From the NCBI GenBank assembly GCA_950295325.1, contig OX485805.1, forward strand, positions 38,797,501 to 38,861,500: 64,000 nt of DNA. Direction: 5' to 3'. Every line of letters begins with the position of its first letter. Position 1 is the first letter of the stretch. Positions 447-55,135 of this stretch are shown here, piece after piece. This DNA comes from Polytrichum commune (taxonomy: Eukaryota; Streptophyta; Polytrichopsida; Polytrichales; Polytrichaceae). Below the pieces are notes generated by a model. The model was not told the DNA's origin. It saw only the letters and a program-made list of their open reading frames with translations, and did not search any database. The position numbers and the translations under genes are program-made.

Positions 447-995
447 TTATTTATTTTTCGTTTCGTTTGATTTATAATTTAGTATGATGTGTATGGGAAA
501 TATGAGTGGGTTATTTTTTATGTTGGAGGGTGGGTTGGGTTGTTGGGGTTGTTGTGGTAGCGGTGGTAGTGGTGGGTGTAAGGGATTTTCCTGCATTCTG
601 GGTGTTAGTTCTCTGTTGTTTAATATGTATTTTGTTCTAAATGTGCGGGCTTGTGGGTGCCTATTACATGGGTTTGAGCAGTTTTGGTTACAACTTTCGT
701 GGCAAAAAAGTTGTTCCGCTATATGTAGTGCATTTTTTTCTAATTTTGTCGGTGTTTTATAATAAGTTTGAAAGTCTTTTGGCGACATTAAGTTTGTGCC
801 ATTGGGGAGGGAGATGTGTTTTACCTTTTGTATGTTGTGAGTTAGGAGTTTATGGAGTAGTTTGAGAGATAACTCGGTGTTTAGCTGTGGTAGTACAGTT
901 GTGGCTTGTGTTCTCCATTCTTGTTCTAGTTCTGTCATATGTAGTTGGAAGTTTGCTTCTATATTTTTAAGGTGAGCCCCTCCCTCCTTTTTCAT
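447..995 (-). pseudogene. C-terminal region of LINE ORF2
   Basis: A 182-codon open stretch after the RT. It contains a short cysteine cluster (CHESCNQNCSNPC) in the middle and a proline/glutamine-rich tail. The Cys/His cluster may be the remnant of a C-terminal zinc knuckle found in many LINE ORF2 proteins; spacing is not clearly canonical. The region 1-446 is presumed 3' UTR. Confidence 0.5.
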
Positions 996-1220
996 CAGAA
1001 ATAGTGTTCGTGTCGTAGGTGATCTGATACAGTCTTGGTATTTGATTCTTTGTATATCCTCTGGCCCTCCGTGTTTGGCTAGTATATGTTATATGAGTCT
1101 TTTGTAGATTATTCATAATCTTCCGGGATCATTTAATGCGTTTCAAAGTTGTTCATTAATACATCTTAGGTAGGCATTTTTTAGTGAGAATGCTTCTAGT
1201 CCAAATAGGTCATGTGGTAG

Positions 1221-2450
1221 TCAGGTTATTATGTTTGCTATGCATTTGGGTAAGCCACAGATTACTTTTTGGATTCCAATAAATTTTTTGTCTAATTTTT
1301 TTATGGTTGGTAATGAATATGGAACTGCGTAGAAGCTGTAGGCTATATCGGCTCTAATGACGGTATCCACCATGCTTATTTTTTGTTTGAGTGTAGCTAG
1401 ACAGTTTGTTAGTTGTTTGCATTGGTCTATTATTTTGGCTAAAGTGATTTGTGTTTGGAGCTTCCACTTTAGTAAAGGTTCTAGCTGTATGCCTAAATAT
1501 ACGTAGGGTTCGTTTTGGTGTAGGATAGGTAGTGGTTGATTTATGTAGTTGATATTTTGGGCTTGGATTTTGGCTTTGAATGTTTTGGGTTTTGTTTTTG
1601 ATTTATTTGGGCATCCTGTGATAGCACATTTTGGTACTCCCAAGTCCATTCCGGCCCAATCACAGTATTTGTCCAATTTGTTTAGTTGAGTTTGTATTGA
1701 TTGGAGGTTGTTTGTGATAGCTGCTAGGTCGTCTGCGTATGCTGCCGAGCTGATTGTTAGTTTGGATGTACCAAATGTGTATCCGTTTTTTTCTCTTTTT
1801 GTAGCCATCTTAGTAGAGGTTCTAGGAATATCAGAAAGAGGTATGGGTTAAGTGTATCGCCTTGTATTGTGCCTCTTTGTATTTGTATAGGTTTTGTCTT
1901 TCCGAAGTGTTCGCCAGTGAATATGGTATTGGAGTTTGAGTAATTGTTTCCTATTAGAATCACCGCGTCTTCTGGGTATCCTAAATCTTCGTTATGGCTA
2001 ACAACCTTGCGTGGTTAAGAGAGCCGAAGGCGTTCTTGAAGTCGATATATAATAGGTATATGTCTTGGTTTGTAAATCTTACGTCTTCTAGTGCTGCTAT
2101 AAGGAGTTGAAGTTGTCTGGACGTGCTTCTTTCTACTCTGAATCCTTCTTGACTATCGTGTAGGATTTGGTGTTTCTCCCCGTATGCTGATAGTATGAAT
2201 GTTAGGGTACTTGTAAAAAAATTGTATATTGTGTTTACGAGTGCGATTGGTCGGTGGTTTGGTAGTTTTGAGGGATCTCCTTTTTTATATAGGAGTATGG
2301 TTAAGCTTATTTTCCATGACGTGGGAATTTGTTTTTTTTGTAACAGTGGGAGAAGAATAGGAAAAGTAGTTTGTGGAAGCTTTCGGGCATGTTTTTTAGA
2401 ATTGTGTTAGGGATTTTATCAGGGCCGGGTGTTTTGTTGTTTGCTAGGTT
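1221..2450 (-). pseudogene. reverse transcriptase domain of LINE ORF2, frameshifted
   Basis: RT motifs follow in order on the minus strand: PGPDKIPNTILKNMP (about 2435-2390), a QEGFR-type finger block near 2145-2130, YIDFKNAFGSLNHARL (2050-2000), RGTIQGDTLNPYLFLIFLEP (about 1880-1820) and AYADDLAAIT (about 1745-1715) with the catalytic Asp pair, followed by thumb-like sequence to 1221. The QGDT block and the YADD block lie in different frames that overlap at 1757-1808, a frameshift, and further stops occur upstream. Confidence 0.82.
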
Positions 2451-3269: not shown

Positions 3270-4140
3270 TTATGTTTTGAATTTTTCAATATTTTCATGT
3301 GGGATAGGGTATAATAACCTTGGGGATTTATCTGTAATTGGTGGTATACAACGGGCTAGTAATGTATTTGGTGGTATATGTAGTGTTACTGGGGAGTGGT
3401 CTGAGTTAAGGTTGTAGTCATTATTTGTGGTTGAAGTATATAGGGCATTGTTGGGTATTTTAATGTAGTATCCGTCTATTAAGCTAGTTTGGTTGTAGTT
3501 AAGACCACCTTGTCTAGGATATGAGCTATTCGTAGGGATGTATATGAATTGGAGGTTGTTCATAAATGTACTCCATTCTATATCTTTTGCTTGAGGTGGT
3601 GTTGTGATGTATTCGTTTTGACGTCCTATAAGGGCTATGTCTCTATTAAAGTCTCCGCATAGAATGTGTATGTGGTTTGGGTGATTAGTGGTTTGTTGTG
3701 TTATGTTTTGTTGTATTATTGGTATAAATTTTATATCTTCTTCGTGTGACGGCATGTAGATGTGTATTATTAACCATGGTTGTAGAGGTTGGTTGTTTAG
3801 TTCTATTATTTGTAGGTACGGTGATATTGCGGCTGGAGTGGGGATTTTAGTGATGTTGCCTGGATATGCGTATATTTTATTTATGAGTGTAAGGAGTCCG
3901 CCTCTTGCAGGTGTATATGGCATTCTTTGTTGTATACATCTTGTTAATGCATGCGTATTGTTAAATATTAGTTTAAATTGTGGGAATAGATTTTGTATGT
4001 ATTTTGTGCATTTTGTTGCGGTTAGTTTGGTTTCTTGTATAGTGATAATTGTTGGGTTGTTTGGTGTATTTGATATAAGTTTGTGGAGGTTTGGTAGGGC
4101 TGTGTTTAGTGATGAAGAGTTCCATGTGATTATGTGTGTG
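3270..4140 (-). pseudogene. APE-type endonuclease domain of LINE ORF2
   Basis: In-frame open stretch starting near IITWNSSSLN and ending in a stop at 3270-3272. Motifs in family order: TWNSSS with the catalytic Asn; QETKLT with the metal-binding Glu; GDFNRD; SLIDGYYI; SDHSPVTLH with the catalytic Asp-His. The domain itself is whole, and only the flanking stops break the polyprotein. The reaction is nicking of target DNA to prime reverse transcription. Confidence 0.8.
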
Positions 4141-4774
4141 CTGCGATTTGTTATCTGGTTTGGCTGGGGACGTAATGTGGGTATGTTGGGTAGTGGTGGG
4201 GGATGGGAGTATTCATGTAGTGGCTATTTGCATTTTAGTGCTTCTGTAAGTAATTTTTCTAGTAAAAAAGGGAATTTGTCTGTCATTAGTTGTATGGTTA
4301 GTGGTGCGTTACTTTGTTTGATGAAGTTATATATTTCTTTGTGTATGGTGTTTGGTGGGTTGATAATATCTTGATTTGTTTGTAGGAATTGTGTGTATGG
4401 GTGCATTCTTATGATGTGTCTTTCGGGTGGATTTTGGAGTGAGGCCATACGCTCTAAGACTGTTGTTGTGCAATCTGGTTCTGGAGTTTGTATTAGTATG
4501 TGGTTGCATGTCTCTATTACTGGGCTAATTGTGGTAATAAGTGCATATAATATGCGTGGGGGTGGATGGTGTTGGTTTTTGTAGATGTATCTTGATAGGT
4601 ATGGATAATCTATAATTGTGTCTTGGTGTTTTGGGTGTGCTAGATTTATGATAGGGGAAAATTGTTTTGCTAGGTATTGGTATTCAGGTTGTAACTTGAT
4701 TGTGCATTCTATAAAGTACATTTTGCATTTGTTTTTGTGTGTGGATGGGTGTGTTTGTAGAATATTGGGCATGG

Positions 4775-4850
4775 GTCCCAGGTTGGTTTCAATGTCTCCG
4801 TTGAGTAATAGTAGTAAGTGTAAGGAGAATGCGTGGATAATGGGGAGGTT
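4775..4850 (-). other. 2A-like ribosome-skipping motif at ORF2 N-terminus (altered)
   Basis: Minus-strand translation gives SLHLLLLLNGDIETNLGP followed by MPNIL, in frame with the ORF2 linker and endonuclease. This matches the 2A signature D(V/I)ExNPGP after a leucine-rich stretch, except that the first proline of NPGP is leucine here. 2A-like leaders are known from several LINE ORF2 proteins, where the ribosome skips a peptide bond before the final proline. The substitution probably impairs skipping in this copy. Confidence 0.65.
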
Positions 4851-5011
4851 TGGTCGTTCTTTGTAGGTTATGTACCATTGTTTTTTAGTATTTGTTATTT
4901 TATAGTCTGGGTTTGTTATGTGGCTTGGATGTTTAATGGTTTTTTTTTGTGTTTGTTTGGTATGTCTGGTCTTGTGTTGGTTTTTCTTTCTTATTTTAAT
5001 TTTTTGGTTTT

Positions 5012-5035
5012 GGGCGAGGCCGGTAGGCCGAGCCC
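5012..5035 (-). repeat. GC-rich 24-nt hairpin repeat, copy 4 (nearest ORF2)
   Basis: Identical 24-nt unit located about 170 nt upstream, in LINE sense, of the 2A-like motif that opens ORF2. In the minus frame open here it reads GLGLPASP, a different frame from the other copies, so conservation is at the nucleotide level rather than the peptide level. Confidence 0.8.
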
Positions 5036-6034
5036 TTTTTGGGTGGTTTTATGGATTATATGTTGTGTTATTTTGTTTTGGTGTTTTGGAAACTTCTTTG
5101 GGAGGGGTGGGGTGTTGTTGTGGTTTGTTGTTTTTTGAGTGGTGTAGGGTGTGTTTGTTTGTTTCTTTATTGTCTTTTGTGTGTTGTATGGTTTTAGTTT
5201 TTTGTATGTGTTTTTAGCTTTCCGGAGGCGTTTTTTGGTTGTGGTTAGCTTTTCCTTGTGTTTATTTGTAAGGTTTATGTTTGTTTTGTTTTTGTTTTGT
5301 ATGGTCAAAGGTATTAAGAGATGTTTTGTCTTTATTATTATTTATAATTTTGGGTGTTTGCGTTTGTTTAGGGTTTTTTGAGCCATTGTTGTTTTGTATT
5401 GGGCTATCGGTCTTATTTTGTTTTGTGTTTTGTGTGGGAGTATTGCAAAGTGTTGTATTTGTGATTTTTTGTTGTTTAGGTTTTGGTGATCTTTCTTTTG
5501 GTCTATCTTTTTTGTTTTTTTGTTGTGTGGTTATTTTACCATTGATTAATGTTATGTGATATAAGGTTAGAGTGGGAGTCTTTGGTGTTATTATAGGGTT
5601 TTTTTTTGCACATGTTTGGTTGGTTGTGTGGTGAGGGTGGTGTAGTTAGGTATTGTTGTTTGTTTTCTTATTATCTTTTGTGTTTCATATGGTTTTGGTT
5701 TTTTGTGTGTGTTTTTAGGTTTTCGGGGGCGTTTTTTTGGTTATGTTTATCTTTTCCTTGTTTTTGCTTATAAGGTTTAGGTTTGTTTTTGGTGAGGTTT
5801 TAATGTCTCCACTATGTATTACTAGTAGTTGTAGGGAGGGTGGTTGGTTTACGGGGAGATTTTCACGTTCTATGTGGTTTGGGCTTTGTTGTTTGTTATG
5901 GTTTTTTGTAGAGTTTAGGTTTGTTATATGACTTGGGTGTTTTGTGTTCCTTTGGTGTGTTTGTTTGTTGATATGTGTGGTTTTGTATTGGTGTTTTCTA
6001 ATTTTTTCTTTTTTTCTTTTGGTTACTTTGTTTT

Positions 6035-6058
6035 GGGCGAGGCCGGTAGGCCGAGCCC
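6035..6058 (-). repeat. GC-rich 24-nt hairpin repeat, copy 3
   Basis: Identical over 24 nt to the units at 6749 and 5012. It sits 1,023 nt from the 5012 copy, matching the period of the tandem duplication of the ORF2 leader region. Confidence 0.8.
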
Positions 6059-6436
6059 ATTTTAGGTGGTTTTTATTGGTTTTTTGTATTTGATATTTAT
6101 GTGTATTTTTGTTTTGATATTTTGGGATAATTCTTGAAGGAGGTGTGATGGCATTAGGGTTTGTGTGTTTGTTTATGTGGTTTATTAAAGTAACGTGGAT
6201 TGTGTTAGGTGTGTTTGTTTGTTGTTTCGTTCTTTGTGTTTTGTATGGTTTCGGTTTTTTGTGTGCATTTGTAGTTTTTAGAGGGTATGTGTATAACATA
6301 AGTAGGAGGTGTGTCGGGTATGTTTTGGGGTGGGGTTTTATTTGTTTATGTTGTGTGTGTTCATTATTATTTTTGGGTTTTATGTTATTTGAGTTTGTGT
6401 GTTGTTTGAGCCTCTTCTTGTTTTTATTTTGTTTGT

Positions 6437-6460
6437 GGGCGAGGTCTGTAGGCCGGGCTC
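6437..6460 (-). repeat. GC-rich 24-nt hairpin repeat, variant copy
   Basis: A variant of the same unit: arms GGGC/GCTC and GGTC/GGCC with loop TGTA. The arm changes create only G-T wobbles, so pairing is kept on the plus strand, while one mismatch position changes from GA to GG. Confidence 0.72.
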
Positions 6461-6748
6461 GTTTTATGTGTTTGGTTTTTATTATTATGTTTTTAAGGTT
6501 TTTCCCCTCCTTTGTTTGATGTGTGTTATAGGGAGGTGAGGTGTTTGTCCTTTTGTGTTTAGTTGTGTGTTTTGTTTTTTTGGTTGTGTTAACTATATTC
6601 GTTCTAAGTGTGCATATATATATTTTAGTATTGTTATTTTTTATTATACTTTTGATATTTCTTTGTTTGGGTGTTGTTTTGCTTGAGGTTTTGTTTTGTG
6701 TGTTTGTTGTTTTTGGGTTTTTACCTTTGTTATATCTGCTTTGTTCTT

Positions 6749-6772
6749 GGGCGAGGCCGGTAGGCCGAGCCC
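6749..6772 (-). repeat. GC-rich 24-nt hairpin repeat, copy 1 in LINE sense
   Basis: A 24-nt unit read on the plus strand as GGGC, GA, GGCC, loop GGTA, GGCC, GA, GCCC. The two 4-bp GC stems are separated by GA/GA mismatches (UC/UC in the LINE RNA). It is identical to the copies at 6035 and 5012 and stands out in an AT-rich surround. In one minus frame it encodes ARPTGLA. Confidence 0.8.
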
Positions 6773-6999
6773 GTTTGTGTAAGTTTTTTCTAACTTTCTT
6801 TTGATGTGTGTTTTGATGTTTGGTAGCTATCACTTTGTATCTTTTCGTATGTAAAGTTGGTTTCGTTATGTTGGGTTGGTTTGTTGCTTTGGTTTTATGT
6901 GTGTTAGGGTGTGTTATTTTTGTTTGGTTGTTGTTTGTTATTTTTGGTTGTTTTGGTATGTTTTGGTTTTGTTGTTGTTTTAGTTTATGTATGTGTGCT

Positions 7000-7190
7000 A
7001 AAGCATTTAAGAATGCTTTGGTTTTATTTGTTGTTGTTTTTTTTGGTTGATTTGGTATGTTTTGTTTTTGTTGATGTTTTTGTTGTTGTTTTAGTTTATG
7101 TATTTGTGTGGAAGCATTTAGGAATGCTTTTGTTTTATTTATTATTATTTATTGTTTTATTTCTTTATTGTTAGCATTGCCAAATGCTAA
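7000..7190 (-). repeat. three AGCATT-N4-AATGCT hairpins downstream of ORF1
   Basis: Three short perfect inverted repeats at 7000-7019 (arms AAAGCATT/AATGCTTT, loop TAAG), 7112-7129 (AAGCATT/AATGCTT, loop TAGG) and 7171-7190 (TTAGCATT/AATGCTAA, loop GCCA). The core arm is constant, and the outer bases change together on both sides, so pairing is kept. They lie 109-299 nt past the ORF1 stop in the direction of transcription. They may be RNA structures in the bicistronic message; the role is unknown. Confidence 0.7.
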
Positions 7191-7298: not shown

Positions 7299-8861
7299 CT
7301 AGTTTTCCAATTGTGGTTGTGTTGGGGCTAGAATGAAGTCTAGCGCTTTTGTTGTCATACTAACCGCTTGTGATGTTAGTGCTAGTTGCTTTCTAATTTC
7401 CGCCAGTTGTAGTTTGACACGTGTTGTCATGTTTTGGGTAATTCTTTCTTCTCGTACATCTGCTTCCAAAGACACCTCTTTTTTGAAGTCTCCCATTTCC
7501 TTGTGTAATTCGGCTGTGAGCTCTGATTTGAGCTCGATTATGAGTTGTCCATTCCTTTTGTCCATGGCGGTTTCAACCAATGCATCAAGGTCGTCATGTG
7601 TGATCATGGTACTTTTCCCTTTGCTTTGTGGTGCATTGCGAGTTGCCTCAAGTGTATCCGCGATTGCTGTGGATATGTCACAAAACCCAAGTTTTTGTTG
7701 CTCCTCCTTGGTGGGTGGTATTGCTCCTTGTAAGCTTTTTGGATGAGGTGAAAAGCTCACATGTTTGCCAAAGATTTCTACGGTCTTGCCTACCCATTGC
7801 CTATAGACAATGGCGTTGAGGCATTGTACATTTGCCGTGCCTTTGTGAAGATCACCTACTTGTCCTCGAAAGTAGAAAGATGCTACATTTAACCCTCCTA
7901 GAACTGCTTTGATGGAGTCCTTTGTATCTTCTATTTTCTTCATTTTGTGAAGACCATAGAGGCACAACATGGTGGCATTCTTTTTTTTGATTTCGTCTTC
8001 TGTGAGTCCTTCTCCGCGGCTCCTTCTCTCTGCTTTGGCTGCTTGTGGTGTGATTACCTGCATGAGTTCTTGTTTGTATGGAACAAAATATTGAATGATT
8101 ATGTTTGCTTGTGTTGGCGTGGTTGAGATGAGCCATCCCCATGTTTCTTCTTTGACCTTTTGCACGCTAGCAATCTCATAGTCATATCCACGTCTGAAAC
8201 TCTCAATTAAAACATCTCTATGTAGCTCACTAGAGGAGATGAGGTGTAGCTTGGGGTTCTCGATTTTTGTAGATAGCAAAGTGTTTCTAGCTATTGAATC
8301 ATAGCATTTGCAAATTTTTCCTAGCATTTGGGTTTTATCTATTGTCAAGATAAAGGGTAGCCCCTTAAGCATGCCAATGCCATCAATTTTGGGATTTTTG
8401 AGATGAATCTTAATGGTCCCCGTCCAAAATTTGATTTTGTTGTTTCTCTCTTTCTCTTTGCATGGGATGTAAATGGGTTCCGCTAGTCCTATCCCCATTT
8501 CGATGCTCATACATGCTAGTCTAGTTGTTGCCATGGTTAGTATCTCATTATGAGTATAGTCTGTTGATGGTCTTTCAAAGTAGACAACTATGTGGTAGTC
8601 AAAGGAAAGCCCAGTGCCGGGATCGACTTCTGTTTCTATGGGTAATTGAGTTAAGTTGAAATGTTGCCCACCTTTCCCATCCGGTCTCTCCAATGGGTAG
8701 AGTAGTTGCTTCACATGTGGGAATGCGATCTTGTAAAGTTGGCTCATCTCCTCTGCTTCTCCTTCAGCTATGCCCATTTCGATAAGGTCTTCTTTCTTCA
8801 TTGATGGCCGACAGTCTTTGGTTTTTACCCCTTCATCAATAGCGAGTTTCTCCATAGCCAC
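7299..8861 (-). CDS. LINE ORF1-like protein (520 aa open frame)
   Basis: A long open frame of 520 residues beginning MEKLAIDEG (after MA) and ending APTQPQLEN. I recognise no named domain. The N-terminal 400 residues look globular. Residues about 425-510 are rich in K, E, L and Q with heptad-like spacing, suggesting a coiled coil, as in many LINE ORF1 proteins that trimerise and bind the element RNA. It is the first ORF of the element and is followed by the hairpin-rich spacer and ORF2. The same frame continues upstream past one TAG at 8871-8873 to a Met at 9212, so the original protein may have been about 638 aa. Its function as an RNA-binding ORF1p is inferred from position only. Confidence 0.7.
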   Translation of the reverse strand: MAMEKLAIDEGVKTKDCRPSMKKEDLIEMGIAEGEAEEMSQLYKIAFPHVKQLLYPLERPDGKGGQHFNLTQLPIETEVDPGTGLSFDYHIVVYFERPSTDYTHNEILTMATTRLACMSIEMGIGLAEPIYIPCKEKERNNKIKFWTGTIKIHLKNPKIDGIGMLKGLPFILTIDKTQMLGKICKCYDSIARNTLLSTKIENPKLHLISSSELHRDVLIESFRRGYDYEIASVQKVKEETWGWLISTTPTQANIIIQYFVPYKQELMQVITPQAAKAERRSRGEGLTEDEIKKKNATMLCLYGLHKMKKIEDTKDSIKAVLGGLNVASFYFRGQVGDLHKGTANVQCLNAIVYRQWVGKTVEIFGKHVSFSPHPKSLQGAIPPTKEEQQKLGFCDISTAIADTLEATRNAPQSKGKSTMITHDDLDALVETAMDKRNGQLIIELKSELTAELHKEMGDFKKEVSLEADVREERITQNMTTRVKLQLAEIRKQLALTSQAVSMTTKALDFILAPTQPQLEN

Positions 8862-8870
8862 GATCCCAAG

Positions 8871-9212
8871 CTAGAAGTCTCTCGGTGTGTCTTTTAGTCC
8901 AGTTGTCAGCTCCGCATTCTTCTTTCGCTTGCTTGAGTTGCTTCCCTTCTTTGCTTCTTGTGTCCTTTTGGTTTGAGTAGTCTCAATCACCATTGTGTCT
9001 TCTGTGTCTTCCATGTTGGTGTCAATGAGGCTCCTCATGATGGCGTCATGTACTGCTTTGCCTCTGCTTGCCATCTGTTGCACACAATAATTGCTAATGT
9101 TTTGGTAAGTTTTTAGGGTAGTGTTTTTATCTCCTCCTTTTTGCGCATGCAATCGGGCTTTGTAGAGGAGATTAGAGCTTTTATTTTTTTGGTTATAAGT
9201 ATTACATATCAT
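8871..9212 (-). pseudogene. N-terminal extension of LINE ORF1, cut off by TAG
   Basis: A 113-codon open stretch in exactly the same frame as the 520-aa ORF1 and separated from it by a single TAG (8871-8873) and three codons. It is basic and polar, with a K/R-rich cluster near its end that resembles a nuclear localisation signal. The frame agreement suggests one original ORF1 of about 638 aa with a premature stop. The alternative is a short separate upstream ORF. No domain is recognised. Confidence 0.5.
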
Positions 9213-11230
9213 ATGAGTTGTTATTGGGAGGTTTGTAAACTTATGTGCTAATTTGTTTGGGGGTATGCTATTGTGTTGAGGGCAACTAAATTATGTGATA
9301 TTCTTACTTATTGATTTGATGTGCGTGAAATGATGGTAAGGGTTAGGGAGCTTACCTGTTACGCTGATTTTGTAGTCGGGTGTCGTTGTTGTAAGCTCTG
9401 CTCTAAGTGATTTGGTGCGGAATGGCCGGTGCATGTGCTTGGTGGAGGTGTGAAGTGTTTGGAGGAGTTGTGGCCCCTAGTGTTTACGGTGGTGAGGTGG
9501 GCTTGGCAGGATGAGTATGTTGACAGTGTGTTGCTCATTCTTTCAACCCGGTGTCATTGTCCAACTACAAGACAAGTCCCCAACTCTTTCAGTTTAGGAC
9601 TAGGGTTTGTACCGAATGGGCAACTCTTGTTGTCGAACAAACATGGGTATGCCTTGCTAACTTCCCTTTCCTAGAGTCAGTAAAATACGGAACAGAATCA
9701 CCCTCCACGTATATGACTTTCCCAGTCTTGGGTCACCGTAAATTGCTTTGGGCAGTGAGAGTATGCTTGATTGGTGTTGTGTCGTTGGGTCGATGTTGGG
9801 ACATAGAGTGCGATCAGTAGCGGCAGTCGGTGATGTAGTTAGTTTTGATGCAGCAGCTGGTCCAGACCTGCACCTACTTGAATGTAGTTGTCGAAAACTA
9901 AAGAAAACACGGGCAGTGGTGCAGTCAAAGGGCGTCGGTGCTTCTCGGTCAACCTGCATACAAGCTGTGCTTTGTATTTCGGGAACTGAACATGGCCGGT
10001 GCCTATCTCCAGTCTGCAACCTCTCCTTGTCTGTATCAGTTTCGCTTGGCTTTGCAGCACAGTGAGCTTTGAGCGTAGGGAGTGCAATCTACAAACAAGG
10101 CTACAACTACATTAGTGATGCACGGGTCCAGTCTTAGACTTGGCGATCTTCGATGGCCAAGTTGTCGACACCGAATTCTCAGTCGGCGGTGTTACCCTCG
10201 ATCTTCAAGGTGACGTGATTTCGATCAGCAGAAACAACGCCCTCTCTCTAAACGGTGATGTCACCTTGGTTCCGATCTGCAAACTGCTACTGCCGTATCT
10301 GCTACAGCCGAATCTGCAATATGTTGTGGGCGGGGTTGCTCATGCCCTGAACTGAGCAATCTTTACAAACTGGTTAGTTAGCTACTTTGATCGCTTCCAA
10401 CCTCACTGATACTACGACCAGATCTGTAGTTGCTTCGACCAGATCTATAAGCTGCTACGTTCAGTTTTACTGAGCACTCCGACTTCCACAATCAGATTTT
10501 ACACACTATGCCGACTAAACGACCACGTGAGCCCTTGCTTAGGGTGTTGCGATCTGCGACAACAGAGGAGTGACTGCGGACTGGTCAGATCTGCACCCAA
10601 CCAAGATTGCGAACACTCTGATTTGTTAGCGATCACTCTAATCTGTCGAGGCCGATCTGCAAGCGCTCCCTCTGACGCTTGCTCCTGCAGCCACACACTC
10701 TGCAAGCACAATTGTGAACGTACACTTCGGAGTGCGCAAATGTACCACTGATATGTTGGGTCCAACCTCCGATCCGGTAGCTCTTCAGCCAATCCTGCAA
10801 ACGCTCACCGGCGAGCTGCAAGCGATCTATCGGTCAGGCGGATCGGAATCACCCTCTGCGCCTGCGACTCAATCGATGCTTACGTCGCCAGAGCTCCTCC
10901 GCCCTACCTCACGAAAAAATCAGAGCGTCGCTCTCACCATCCAGCCTCATCCAAGCCTCTCCACATATAATCACTTACATTTACGTGGCCTCACCAGAAG
11001 CCATGAGTTGCTTTCATCGCCCATAGACTTCTTCTTGATAAGAATACCAAGTCACTGGTTAGGAGAATTTTCAATTTATTTAAACTTTCATATTATTTTT
11101 AACCTAGGTATTTACAAATAGAAATCACATGTGAAACCAACAATAATTGATGGAGAATCGAAAGTTGCTAGCATAAGAATTTGACTTTAATGCAAGCAAA
11201 GTCCATCAGTTGAGAATGTGAGATCCACTA
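9213..11230. other. region with no recognised gene
   Basis: Upstream flank of the LINE followed by about 1.6 kb of higher-GC sequence (9400-11030) with many short open frames on both strands and none with a recognisable domain. Repeated GATCTGC/AGATCT words are frequent between 10380 and 10820, giving a loosely repetitive look. It may be remnants of an old element. Confidence 0.5.
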
Positions 11231-51985: not shown

Positions 51986-53452
51986 TTAAGTGGCAGCGCA
52001 GTCCACTTTCTTGAATCCTATCCTCGATTTTTTGAGGTCATACTCTATACGAAAGTTTTGTTGCTGAACGTTACCAATAATGACGGCTATGGAGCCAGAG
52101 ATTGGGCCGGAATTCATGAAGGCGAAGCAGTAGAGTTCGCCCTGTGTATCAAAGGGCCCGATGAGAATGTTGTCAACGTCAAAGGCAAGGTCGACATTCT
52201 CAAGATGGAAGGTCACTGTGGGAATTTTGGGCGGATAAGAGTGGATGTTGAAGCAGAAATCAAGACCAAGTGTGTTGTTCGAAAGTGGAGCAACAGTGAG
52301 CTTAGACAACTTGAGGAACGTGGACTTGAGGGGCGTGTAAACAACATCTGGCAAGAATGTTATGTACGTCCCGGAGTCAAGAATTGATCCCCCGGTGCCA
52401 TTAGCATCCAGCTTCAACACCGAGGGATCGAAGTTCAACTTCGTCTTGCCCACGCTTACTCCGGTAAAATTGAGGTAATACAGATCCGATCCTCCAGGGA
52501 TGATTTGAAGAGGCGTGAAGGAAAGCCCCTTCAAGTTTGTCTCTCCAAAGTAAAGGAAGCTTGTGGCATTAGGACTCTGTAGCCTGTCCGTGTAACATAA
52601 GGAGAATCTGTGACCAAAAACTCCCTGAAGTTGCGTCGCAAAAGAGAATGTTCCCCTGTCGAGTCCAAGCAACCCTGAATTTCCAACAAACAAGCCCTCA
52701 TTGTAGCGGCCGCAACCAAAGATGAGGTTCGGAACAGCTACAGATCGACCATTTTCGGCGGAGAAAGTGAATGTCTCCGACGACAATGTACCAATTGTGA
52801 AGCTGCCATCGCCATAAGCAGCTTCGTAAGCGCAAGAATTGTCGCCTACCGAACACACAGCAAGGACTCCACCCGTGTTGTTGCACAACGAGTTCTGGCA
52901 ATCGAATCCTAGATATGTTTTTGAGGTAGAAGGACTAAAAATCGGGAGAAGTTGATCGTAACAAAATACGCATGGCGTGCATTGCGTCCATGTGAGCTCG
53001 CTGCCCGTGTCGATGGTCAGGAGGACCTCTTTTGGCGGGGTCCCGACTTTCAAAGAAACGAAGTATTCTTGTGCGCCTGTGCTAGGAGGGGCAGACACGC
53101 CTCCTCCATCTGGTTCTTGAAAAGCTTTATTATAGAAAGAAACTGGACGAGGTTGTTGAAATTTTGAGTTTTTCCGGGAGATTGTCTTCGCAACCTTGTA
53201 GTTGAGGGCGACGAGGCGATTCCAGCTTCTGGAAATAGCAGACAGGAGAACATCGCTGCGACTAGCGGTCGGATGAAAGAAGGGAGATCTAGGATCTTCT
53301 CTGCTCATGAGTTCAAATCCCTGCCCTTGTGATGACCACCATGACTTTCTCGTGAGAGCCTTTGCTTGTACGCAAAGCATGAGGCATAATATGAGGATGC
53401 TGGGAAGCGTTAAAAGCTTCCATGATGTCTTCATCACCTCCACACAAACCAC
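51986..53452 (-). CDS. nepenthesin-type aspartic protease (family A1B), single exon
   Basis: 488 aa without introns. The N-terminus has a hydrophobic signal peptide (LLTLPSILILCLMLCVQAKA); the start may be the Met at 53434 (MKTSWKLL), which gives a more normal signal. A prosegment follows to about residue 125. The catalytic motifs are TIDTGSELTW (Asp about 148) and ILDSGTYITF (Asp about 359), with the flap at AAYGDGSFTIG (Tyr about 213). The cysteine-rich insert CTPCVFCYDQLLPIF after the first Asp is the nepenthesin-specific insertion. Plant A1B enzymes are secreted or plastidial proteases active at acid pH, used in protein turnover, defence or development. The exact role cannot be told. Upstream (53453-53520) is a normal-looking promoter side with no unusual element. 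Confidence 0.93.
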   Translation of the reverse strand: MVCVEVMKTSWKLLTLPSILILCLMLCVQAKALTRKSWWSSQGQGFELMSREDPRSPFFHPTASRSDVLLSAISRSWNRLVALNYKVAKTISRKNSKFQQPRPVSFYNKAFQEPDGGGVSAPPSTGAQEYFVSLKVGTPPKEVLLTIDTGSELTWTQCTPCVFCYDQLLPIFSPSTSKTYLGFDCQNSLCNNTGGVLAVCSVGDNSCAYEAAYGDGSFTIGTLSSETFTFSAENGRSVAVPNLIFGCGRYNEGLFVGNSGLLGLDRGTFSFATQLQGVFGHRFSLCYTDRLQSPNATSFLYFGETNLKGLSFTPLQIIPGGSDLYYLNFTGVSVGKTKLNFDPSVLKLDANGTGGSILDSGTYITFLPDVVYTPLKSTFLKLSKLTVAPLSNNTLGLDFCFNIHSYPPKIPTVTFHLENVDLAFDVDNILIGPFDTQGELYCFAFMNSGPISGSIAVIIGNVQQQNFRIEYDLKKSRIGFKKVDCAAT

Positions 53453-55135
53453 GACAATTTTCTTCCCGGGTGTAGAATTCTAGACTACAGGAGACATAGC
53501 AACTACCGTATCCCGGGCACTACAACATCAACAGATCGAGTTGCTCTCTGTCTGCAGATTTGGAATCTTGTGCTGACTTCTGACAATGAGGGACCAACGG
53601 ACAGACCTGCGCTCCAGATGTGAGGACTTCTGTATGTATGATGGAACCGGACCGGCAGGAATTCGAAGAGGTTACTTTAAAAATTCGATCGCTGTACCAG
53701 GACAACATAAGCAGCAATGGATCAGCAATTAGTGACCCTCTAGCATCAATATCTGCAAATAATGCTAGAACATGGGAGAACCACTTGTCAACACATACAA
53801 TGCCACCTAATGCGACGATTGAAGAGAACCTCAACGAAACATTCCAAGGTCTGAACAAATTACTAGAGGCAGGAGGCACTTTGTACTTACAATAATAGCA
53901 GCATGGTTTGAAGAGAAGGATTCAAGGTATGACACTACTCGAATAGAGAGGCAAGCAATGAGGAAAACGGACAAAGTTTCTAAACGAGGAAGATAAATGG
54001 ATTCTGAAGCGCTTCCAGAACTAAAAACGTTCCTGGAACATGAGGCTTGATGCACGAGTTTAGGAACGGGATAGGAATGAAGTGGACACTCAGGATGCGC
54101 CATAAATTCACTTGGTTAACAATGTAGTGCGAGTGCATCTCACAGCTCAAAGTCGGTATAAAAGGCTATAACAAGGTTCTGGAAAGCTTTCTCGTAAGGC
54201 TTCGCCCTTGATGAAGTTGATCGACTTCACAAGCATGCAGTTCTACATCAAGTGGATTTTGCATAGGCCCCGCACATGTGCACTTTATGATTCGCTCGAG
54301 CATATCATGGGCATGAAGAATAAACTTCAAAAGGATATGTCTCAACTATACTGGCCTTTAGCCCTGGCAGCGTCAACCTGCAGCGCACACATCAATAGGA
54401 GATAAGGGGATTATAGGGCAGTCTGAAGCAGGAGCTCCGACCAGCTCCAATTAATTCTATACGACTCGTTTGGTTCTGACCCGAATAGACTAGTTTGAAT
54501 TGAGTATCAAAATATCAATATTGGTCTCGTATTACGAACACAGAATGCGACCTTACGTTCAATTACCGTACACTAGGAACAACTTTTGGGATCGTGCGAG
54601 GATCGTGCACAGGAATTGTCCTGCGACTAAGTTCTGTAGCTGTATAACTACCAAGCCGGAAAAAGATCACTACCAAGCTGCACAACACAAGACTTGGAGA
54701 TTGTGGAAGAGAACAGAAAGGGCTACGAGGAGAAGGTTCATTAAATGGCAGCTGGAATTTCAACAAGAGACCAAAAACTCATCCACGCGATGATTCTACA
54801 TCATCAAGAGGCACCACACCAGTAATTCTTGCAACGATGATTTTCTCTTACGAGGAAAATTCAAAACAAACGCACTTTGGCATGATAGACAAGGTCCCAA
54901 AGCTACAGCTGAAAACACGTTCCTAGAGCCAGCTGCTTCCTGAAATAACCAGTGAAATTACGCGACGCTTGGAGGTGGATCTTAGCATTGTGACAGAAAT
55001 AGATCTCAGCTTTTAGCTCTTATCCCAAGTGGTCCAAAATCTGCGTCCAAGATGTCGACAACCGCGAAATACCACCGCATGCCCTAGCCAATAAATGAAC
55101 ATTTAGGACACCGATCTGCAACCTATGTTTGATCA
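53453..55135. other. upstream flank of the aspartic protease, no supported gene
   Basis: Short open frames on both strands (for example 53620-53895 plus, 54500-54793 plus) without recognisable domains. Confidence 0.4.

Follow-up and report, generated by a model that had tools for sequence, protein, structure and literature searches.

Does a LINE retrotransposon of a land plant carry a 2A (StopGo) peptide of its own, and where in its ORF2 does the peptide lie? The question is raised by a locus in the window, the whole 64,000-nucleotide stretch of DNA analysed here, in which the minus strand at 4826-4773 encodes SLHLLLLLNGDIETNLGP in the frame that it shares with a conserved LINE domain and an endonuclease, within a land-plant genome of 408 Mb. 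Sequences of the 2A type are known from LINEs of trypanosomes and sea urchin, according to PMC5972666. A first-pass annotation had placed a 2A-like leader at 4775-4850, a range whose inner end is off by no more than two bases, and had it open ORF2 with the canonical NPGP changed to NLGP. The reading that we favour, with a probability of roughly 0.84, is that ORF2 in this family of plant LINEs contains an internal, predicted 2A and that the window holds a dead copy.

Features of the LINE copy in the window (all on the minus strand)
Feature	Position	Strand	Remarks
2A/StopGo-type peptide SLHLLLLLN-GDIETNLGP	4773..4826	-	
Leucine-rich lead SLHLLLLLN	4826-4800	-	
Core GDIETNLGP	4799-4773	-	
Position-17 codon CTG	4779-4781	-	Leu, P17L
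Leader in the 2A frame	4800..7148	-	Long, G-poor; six in-frame stops in this copy
SLQLLVIHSGDIKTSP	5790..5837	-	Probable decayed second 2A remnant, same frame; by eye
Post-2A conserved domain (MPNILQ...)	4224..4772	-	Closed by in-frame TAG 4224-4226
ORF2 AP-type endonuclease	3270..4223	-	Pfam Exo_endo_phos_2, PF14529, E 1.5e-6
Reverse transcriptase, three pieces in different frames	1221..2406	-	PF00078
ORF2 piece downstream of the reverse transcriptase	447..1088	-	By-eye resemblance to L138
ORF1, two pieces in one frame	7299..9290	-	Stop between them at 8871-8873

The peptide is in frame with the ORF2 domain and the endonuclease, as had been claimed, but in the window copy that frame is interrupted by the TAG between them. 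This LINE copy is dead, given its many in-frame stops (eight from 7148 to 3270 in the 2A frame, the terminal one included), its split ORF1 and a reverse transcriptase broken across frames, whose three PF00078 pieces score 27.5, 17.9 and 21.8 bits, each below the Pfam cut-off of 29.6. The endonuclease match reaches 28.5 bits against a cut-off of 27.4, ORF1 was recognised by eye from its counterpart in a relative (L143), where that frame is open, and ORF2 continues past the window start. At the site itself the copy departs from the 2A core at P17, and MPNILQTHP follows the core directly. The leader homologous to window 4800..7148 has no stops in the best other copies; two further copies (L003 and L007) carry upstream remnants that by eye resemble window 5790-5837 and are apparently decayed 2A copies.

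The genome comprises 407.8 Mb in 64 contigs, with the bulk in seven large contigs, all of which contain copies of the LINE. LEAFY is present, its exon being nearest to chain 4bhk, a Physcomitrium protein, among the five solved sequences matched; together with a protease-type gene elsewhere in the window this fits a land plant, probably a bryophyte, and a Polytrichum-type moss with n=7 would be a guess. Used as a protein query, the window ORF gave at least 142 matches (783 candidates, 141 scored), and the 2A site was read at 128 of the 142, the window's own included, the remaining 14 standing outside the count. Of these 128 copies, 127 show a recognisable 2A where homology places it; the exception (L040) is frame-shifted at the site, an exact match to the 2A pattern persisting in its DNA. 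The query contained the 2A, yet most of the score comes from some 180 residues downstream of it, and the search was able to pick up copies lacking a 2A; none without a recognisable 2A occurs among the 127 readable copies. Other copies, compared at this site as the first-pass annotation had suggested, do carry DxExNPGP: the core DIExNPGP is present in 88 of the 127, NIEPNPGP in one more, and exact NPGP, with the other positions left free, in 111. The commonest cores are GDIETNPGP (40 copies), GDIEPNPGP (25) and GDIESNPGP (14), followed by GDIHPNPGP (9), GDIELNPGP (7), GDIKPNPGP (5), GDIKTNPGP (4), GDIEPHPGP (4), GDIETNLGP (3), GDIETNPRP (2) and 14 singletons, among them one with its core broken by a stop codon and another with a stop at G18. 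The observation of a 2A-type sequence in a plant LINE is thus real and confirmed.

The family has the make-up of an APE-type LINE, with the AP-type endonuclease PF14529 in the window and the reverse transcriptase PF00078 in the intact relative L138 (104.6 bits, E 7e-30). Among the ten solved structures matched by the reverse transcriptase the best three are R2 proteins, and LINE-1 ORF2 is also included. An RNase H (PF00075) follows the reverse transcriptase in L145 (E 8e-16) and L144 (E 5e-13), both above the cut-off.

The leader is low-complexity and dominated by few amino acids, a setting in which LLLLLNGDIETNLGP might arise by chance. That explanation is refuted, and we give it practically no weight, since the site recurs at the homologous position in 127 of the 128 copies read and a genome-wide scan with GGNGAYATHGARNNNAAYCCNGGNCC, the degenerate DNA pattern that encodes GDIExNPGP, yields 255 exact matches against none for the reversed control. 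P17 is spelled with four different codons (CCA 41, CCG 37, CCC 37, CCT 6), which indicates that it is the amino acid that has been kept and not the DNA.

Estimates of dN/dS were obtained from 56 disjoint copy pairs, with the number of usable pairs varying by stretch. The ratio is 0.11 for the core (0.07-0.18, 56 pairs), and 0.16 and 0.20 for the two stretches downstream (56 pairs each). Upstream it climbs from 0.32 at -24..-1 (0.25-0.41, 46 pairs) through 0.60 at -48..-25 (35 pairs) and 0.75 at -72..-49 (27 pairs) to 0.87 at -100..-73 (0.61-1.24, 19 pairs), where the exclusion of pairs below 65% identity in a given stretch (below 68% for all pairs) bears hardest. The slope is the same when all pairs are used, these being non-independent (0.81, 0.82, 0.42, 0.23, 0.06, 0.11 and 0.23 from far upstream to downstream, with 0.23 at -24..-1). 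Constraint therefore grows over the last 25-50 residues ahead of NPGP, approximately the length of a 2A. In-frame stops number 1.3-1.5 per 1000 codons downstream and 12.7 at -108..-73, compared with 24-77 in the other frames. The leader, G-poor as well as low-complexity, is nearly neutral at the amino-acid level in the part measured. A 2A core is accompanied upstream by a supporting stretch some 20-25 residues long, which is present here as a leucine-rich lead, ending in S/C/G-G before the Asp, combined with the low dN/dS at -24..-1.

The lost proline was left by the first-pass annotation as either decay of this copy or a relaxed motif in the family; the former holds and the latter does not. 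P17L occurs in six of the 127 copies (the window copy, L037, L043, L048, L059 and L067), and all six codons are CTN, which a single C to T change would produce from the CCN used elsewhere. The window's CTG is one step from CCG, and its closest copy (L002) has CCA. For five of the six the nearest copy is 91-96% alike with NPGP intact, while the nearest in the set to L067 is merely 69% alike. To judge from this pattern, P17L is recurrent decay. A relaxed family motif as the source of NLGP was rejected, the P17L copies being scattered and five of them having a close NPGP copy. P17 and G18 are described in PMC5972666 as completely conserved and essential in active 2As.

Could the whole site be ancestral baggage, inherited by the LINE as an active 2A that the plant lineage has since ceased to use? 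The losses in single copies (P17L, G18R and others) and the presence of Lys-14 in a recently active subfamily would fit such a history, but purifying selection on the core and the preceding 24 codons, the close NPGP relatives of five P17L copies and the duplication of the site into tandem all speak against it, and we regard it as very improbable.

The Lys-14 copies bear on how well the family fits the rules for 2A function. The core is given as (D/G/C/N)(V/I)ExNPGP in PMC12846837, which also reports that natural viral sequences with H14 or H16 are about 90% active or higher; the plant LINE has H14 in nine and H16 in four of the 127 readable copies. The same source associates an LLLLSG-like upstream class with D at position 12, to which the leucine-rich stretch before the Asp is similar. 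Lys-14, found in 11 of the 127 copies (five of them GDIKPNPGP), is not among the probable functional variants listed there. The Lys-14 copies L138, L140 and L141 are 99.6-99.7% identical (99.66% for L138 against L140, compared over 9,869 bases), and we read their subfamily as very recently active. Near-identical pairs also exist in other subfamilies (272 bases compared), and we therefore do not claim that the Lys-14 subfamily is the youngest.

The claim that the 2A opens ORF2 is not supported by the best-preserved of the 14 loci with a long upstream view. In the three best-preserved copies (L138, L139 and L142) the frame is open for 575, 577 and 908 codons upstream of the 2A and crosses the end of ORF1, and an ORF2 start at the 2A is rejected for these copies. 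From the ORF1 end to the 2A (about 550, 550 and 840 codons) they have no in-frame stop, compared with 25-50 stops in each of the other frames. The 2A is thus internal to ORF2 in these three copies, and it would split ORF2 into two or more products. The frame is also open to the edge of view in L149 and L154 (829 and 833 codons), and leaders are shorter in nine loci, the first upstream stop falling at about 515 codons (L152), 490 (L143), 469 (L153), 446 (L148), 356-357 (L150), 314-315 (L140), 224-225 (L151), 64-65 (L141) and 43-44 (L155). Of these, L143 has 18 in-frame stops from ORF1 to the 2A, all of them past 490 codons, and L141 is, by its alignment, 5'-truncated, its match to L138 beginning right at that point. 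A full-length leader is probable in several loci beyond the best three. L155, with an ATG 21 codons upstream of the 2A, may represent a short leader in some subfamilies. In L138 an ATG in the ORF2 frame lies five bases ahead of the ORF1 stop, an overlap that suggests stop-restart.

The leader bears on the most serious alternative, namely that ORF2 starts at the ATG immediately after NPGP and that the peptide, no recoding site, is conserved on other grounds, for instance as a signal peptide or as part of an upstream ORF. A Met directly follows NPGP in 125 of the 127 copies, and some copies have stops soon upstream of the 2A; the best copies nevertheless have leaders free of stops for hundreds of codons, and the residues conserved are those of a 2A. 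A signal-peptide role, as described in PMC4981915, is unlikely where the 2A sits hundreds of codons inside.

Tandem sites and a second lineage also argue against this alternative. Two in-frame 2As without a stop between them occur in two of the 14 loci: L148 has GDIELNPGP 155 codons ahead of GDIHPNPGP, and L154 has GDIQTNPGP 126 codons ahead of its second 2A. The pair of L148 recurs, here with a stop between, in a further locus (L164) that was fetched through its first site. The residue after the first site of tandem pairs is L or Q. The second lineage was sought with L165 as query, giving at least 157 matches, the weaker of which fall on the first lineage. In all four loci read (L168-L171) GDIELNPGP is followed by F, I, L and L, respectively, and the first Met comes 95 codons after NPGP. 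With no Met directly after NPGP, the 2A of this lineage is not a disguised initiation site. The frames are open for 356, 27, 37 and 288 codons upstream, respectively; stops lie about 27-28 and 37-38 codons upstream in L169 and L170, with no Met between. Since a full-length leader is seen in just three loci and, of the four loci read in the second lineage, two have a frame that closes early, our preferred explanation is slightly weakened and a start at the ATG slightly strengthened, although we still consider the latter improbable.

Some members of the second lineage show a repeated match to the 2A and the following domain in the match tables; the positions C2:36080422 and C2:36081229 each have an exact 2A pattern. 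The arrangement at G000:C2:36080422-36081870, and at other pairs, seems to be a head-to-tail duplication that places two 2As before the endonuclease.

For the internal 2A that we favour, we propose the following mechanism. Ribosomes would translate the long leader after ORF1, by restart, to give a nascent peptide of the form [L-rich]-(S/C/G)GDIExNPG. The Gly-Pro bond would not be formed and the leader would be let go, whereupon translation would resume to yield a protein starting with Pro and comprising the conserved domain, endonuclease, reverse transcriptase, PCIF1-like region and RNase H. Each full-length RNA would most likely give an ORF1 protein, a leader protein and an enzyme protein, and copies with two sites would yield three products; a role in transposition is presumed. 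In the window copy the site was lost through the Pro to Leu change, alongside many stop codons.

Odon, in 2013, reportedly described 2A-bearing APE-type LINEs of animals, which resemble the present family in that a site of the GD(V/I)ExNPGP type sits in a non-LTR element that encodes an AP-type endonuclease. The present family differs in its land-plant host, in its leader, which in the best copies runs to several hundred codons, and in the tandem sites of some copies. Heras, in 2006, is said to have described L1Tc of Trypanosoma cruzi, an RNase H-bearing LINE with a 2A at the protein N terminus. There too the 2A shares its frame with the enzymes that the element encodes and an RNase H is reportedly present, but the 2A of L1Tc is reportedly N-terminal, whereas in the best copies of the plant LINE it lies within ORF2.

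Picornaviruses have successive 2A-NPGP sites with tracts of about 50-150 residues between them, according to PMC11512398, and the spacings of 126 and 155 codons in the plant LINE are similar; unlike picornaviruses, the plant element is a cellular retrotransposon with no capsid polyprotein. The 2A-like sequence of sea urchin NLRs, encoded in a cellular genome, works in plant cells, as reported in PMC4981915; unlike the plant LINE 2A, it stands at the N terminus and also serves as a signal peptide. PMC12846837 finds no evidence of natural StopGo use by plant viruses and holds natural use to be largely confined to viruses. Among the papers listed in our search of the open literature, with subscription papers, preprints and Repbase outside its scope, none was seen to report that a gene or LINE of a plant has a native 2A. 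That we have here a native land-plant StopGo, through which well over 100 LINE copies encode their transposition enzymes behind a long leader, with tandem sites in some and a recently active Lys-14 subfamily that works with a core outside the motif so far reported, is put forward tentatively, at somewhat less than even odds. StopGo works in plants when engineered in, and this plant genome, in which the site pattern has 255 exact matches and the family read is under selection, offers native 2A peptides as well as natural H14, H16, K14 and tandem variants. For a LINE, StopGo would be a second route, beside stop-restart, to setting the ratio of its proteins.

Several further observations concern the elements and their surroundings. 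In L146 and L138 (G000:C4:34911200-34924690), of the recently active subfamily, the ORF that precedes ORF2 is open for about 1,830 codons from stop to stop, a figure obtained by adding, not joining, 740 (L146) and 1,092 (L138), and the element could approach 14 kb, which is very long for a LINE. Between the reverse transcriptase and RNase H of L138 (L138:3273-9989, residues 2145-2237) Pfam places a PCIF1_WW domain at 40.5 bits against a cut-off of 31.1, with 13.2 bits in L145, and PCIF1 chains in the PDB match this region with E about 0.05. The region is PCIF1-like and possibly derived from an RNA methyltransferase. Predicted structures are poor, with a pLDDT of 42.6 for it and 53.2 for the post-2A domain. 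The window copy (L147) runs into the PCIF1-like region beyond the window start, with stops.

Within the otherwise G-poor leader of the window copy lies a GC-rich hairpin of 24 bases (5012-5035, minus strand) that reads RARPTGLAQ in the 2A frame and folds at -14.4 kcal/mol (z -2.5). Exact copies are found at 6035-6058 and 6749-6772 and a variant near 6437; the genome holds 35 exact copies (control 0), and none was seen in the L138 leader. Elsewhere in the window, 497 codons are open on the minus strand at 51989-53479; the translation has xylanase-inhibitor (TAXi) and aspartyl-protease domains, and the gene probably encodes a plant protease of the nepenthesin type.
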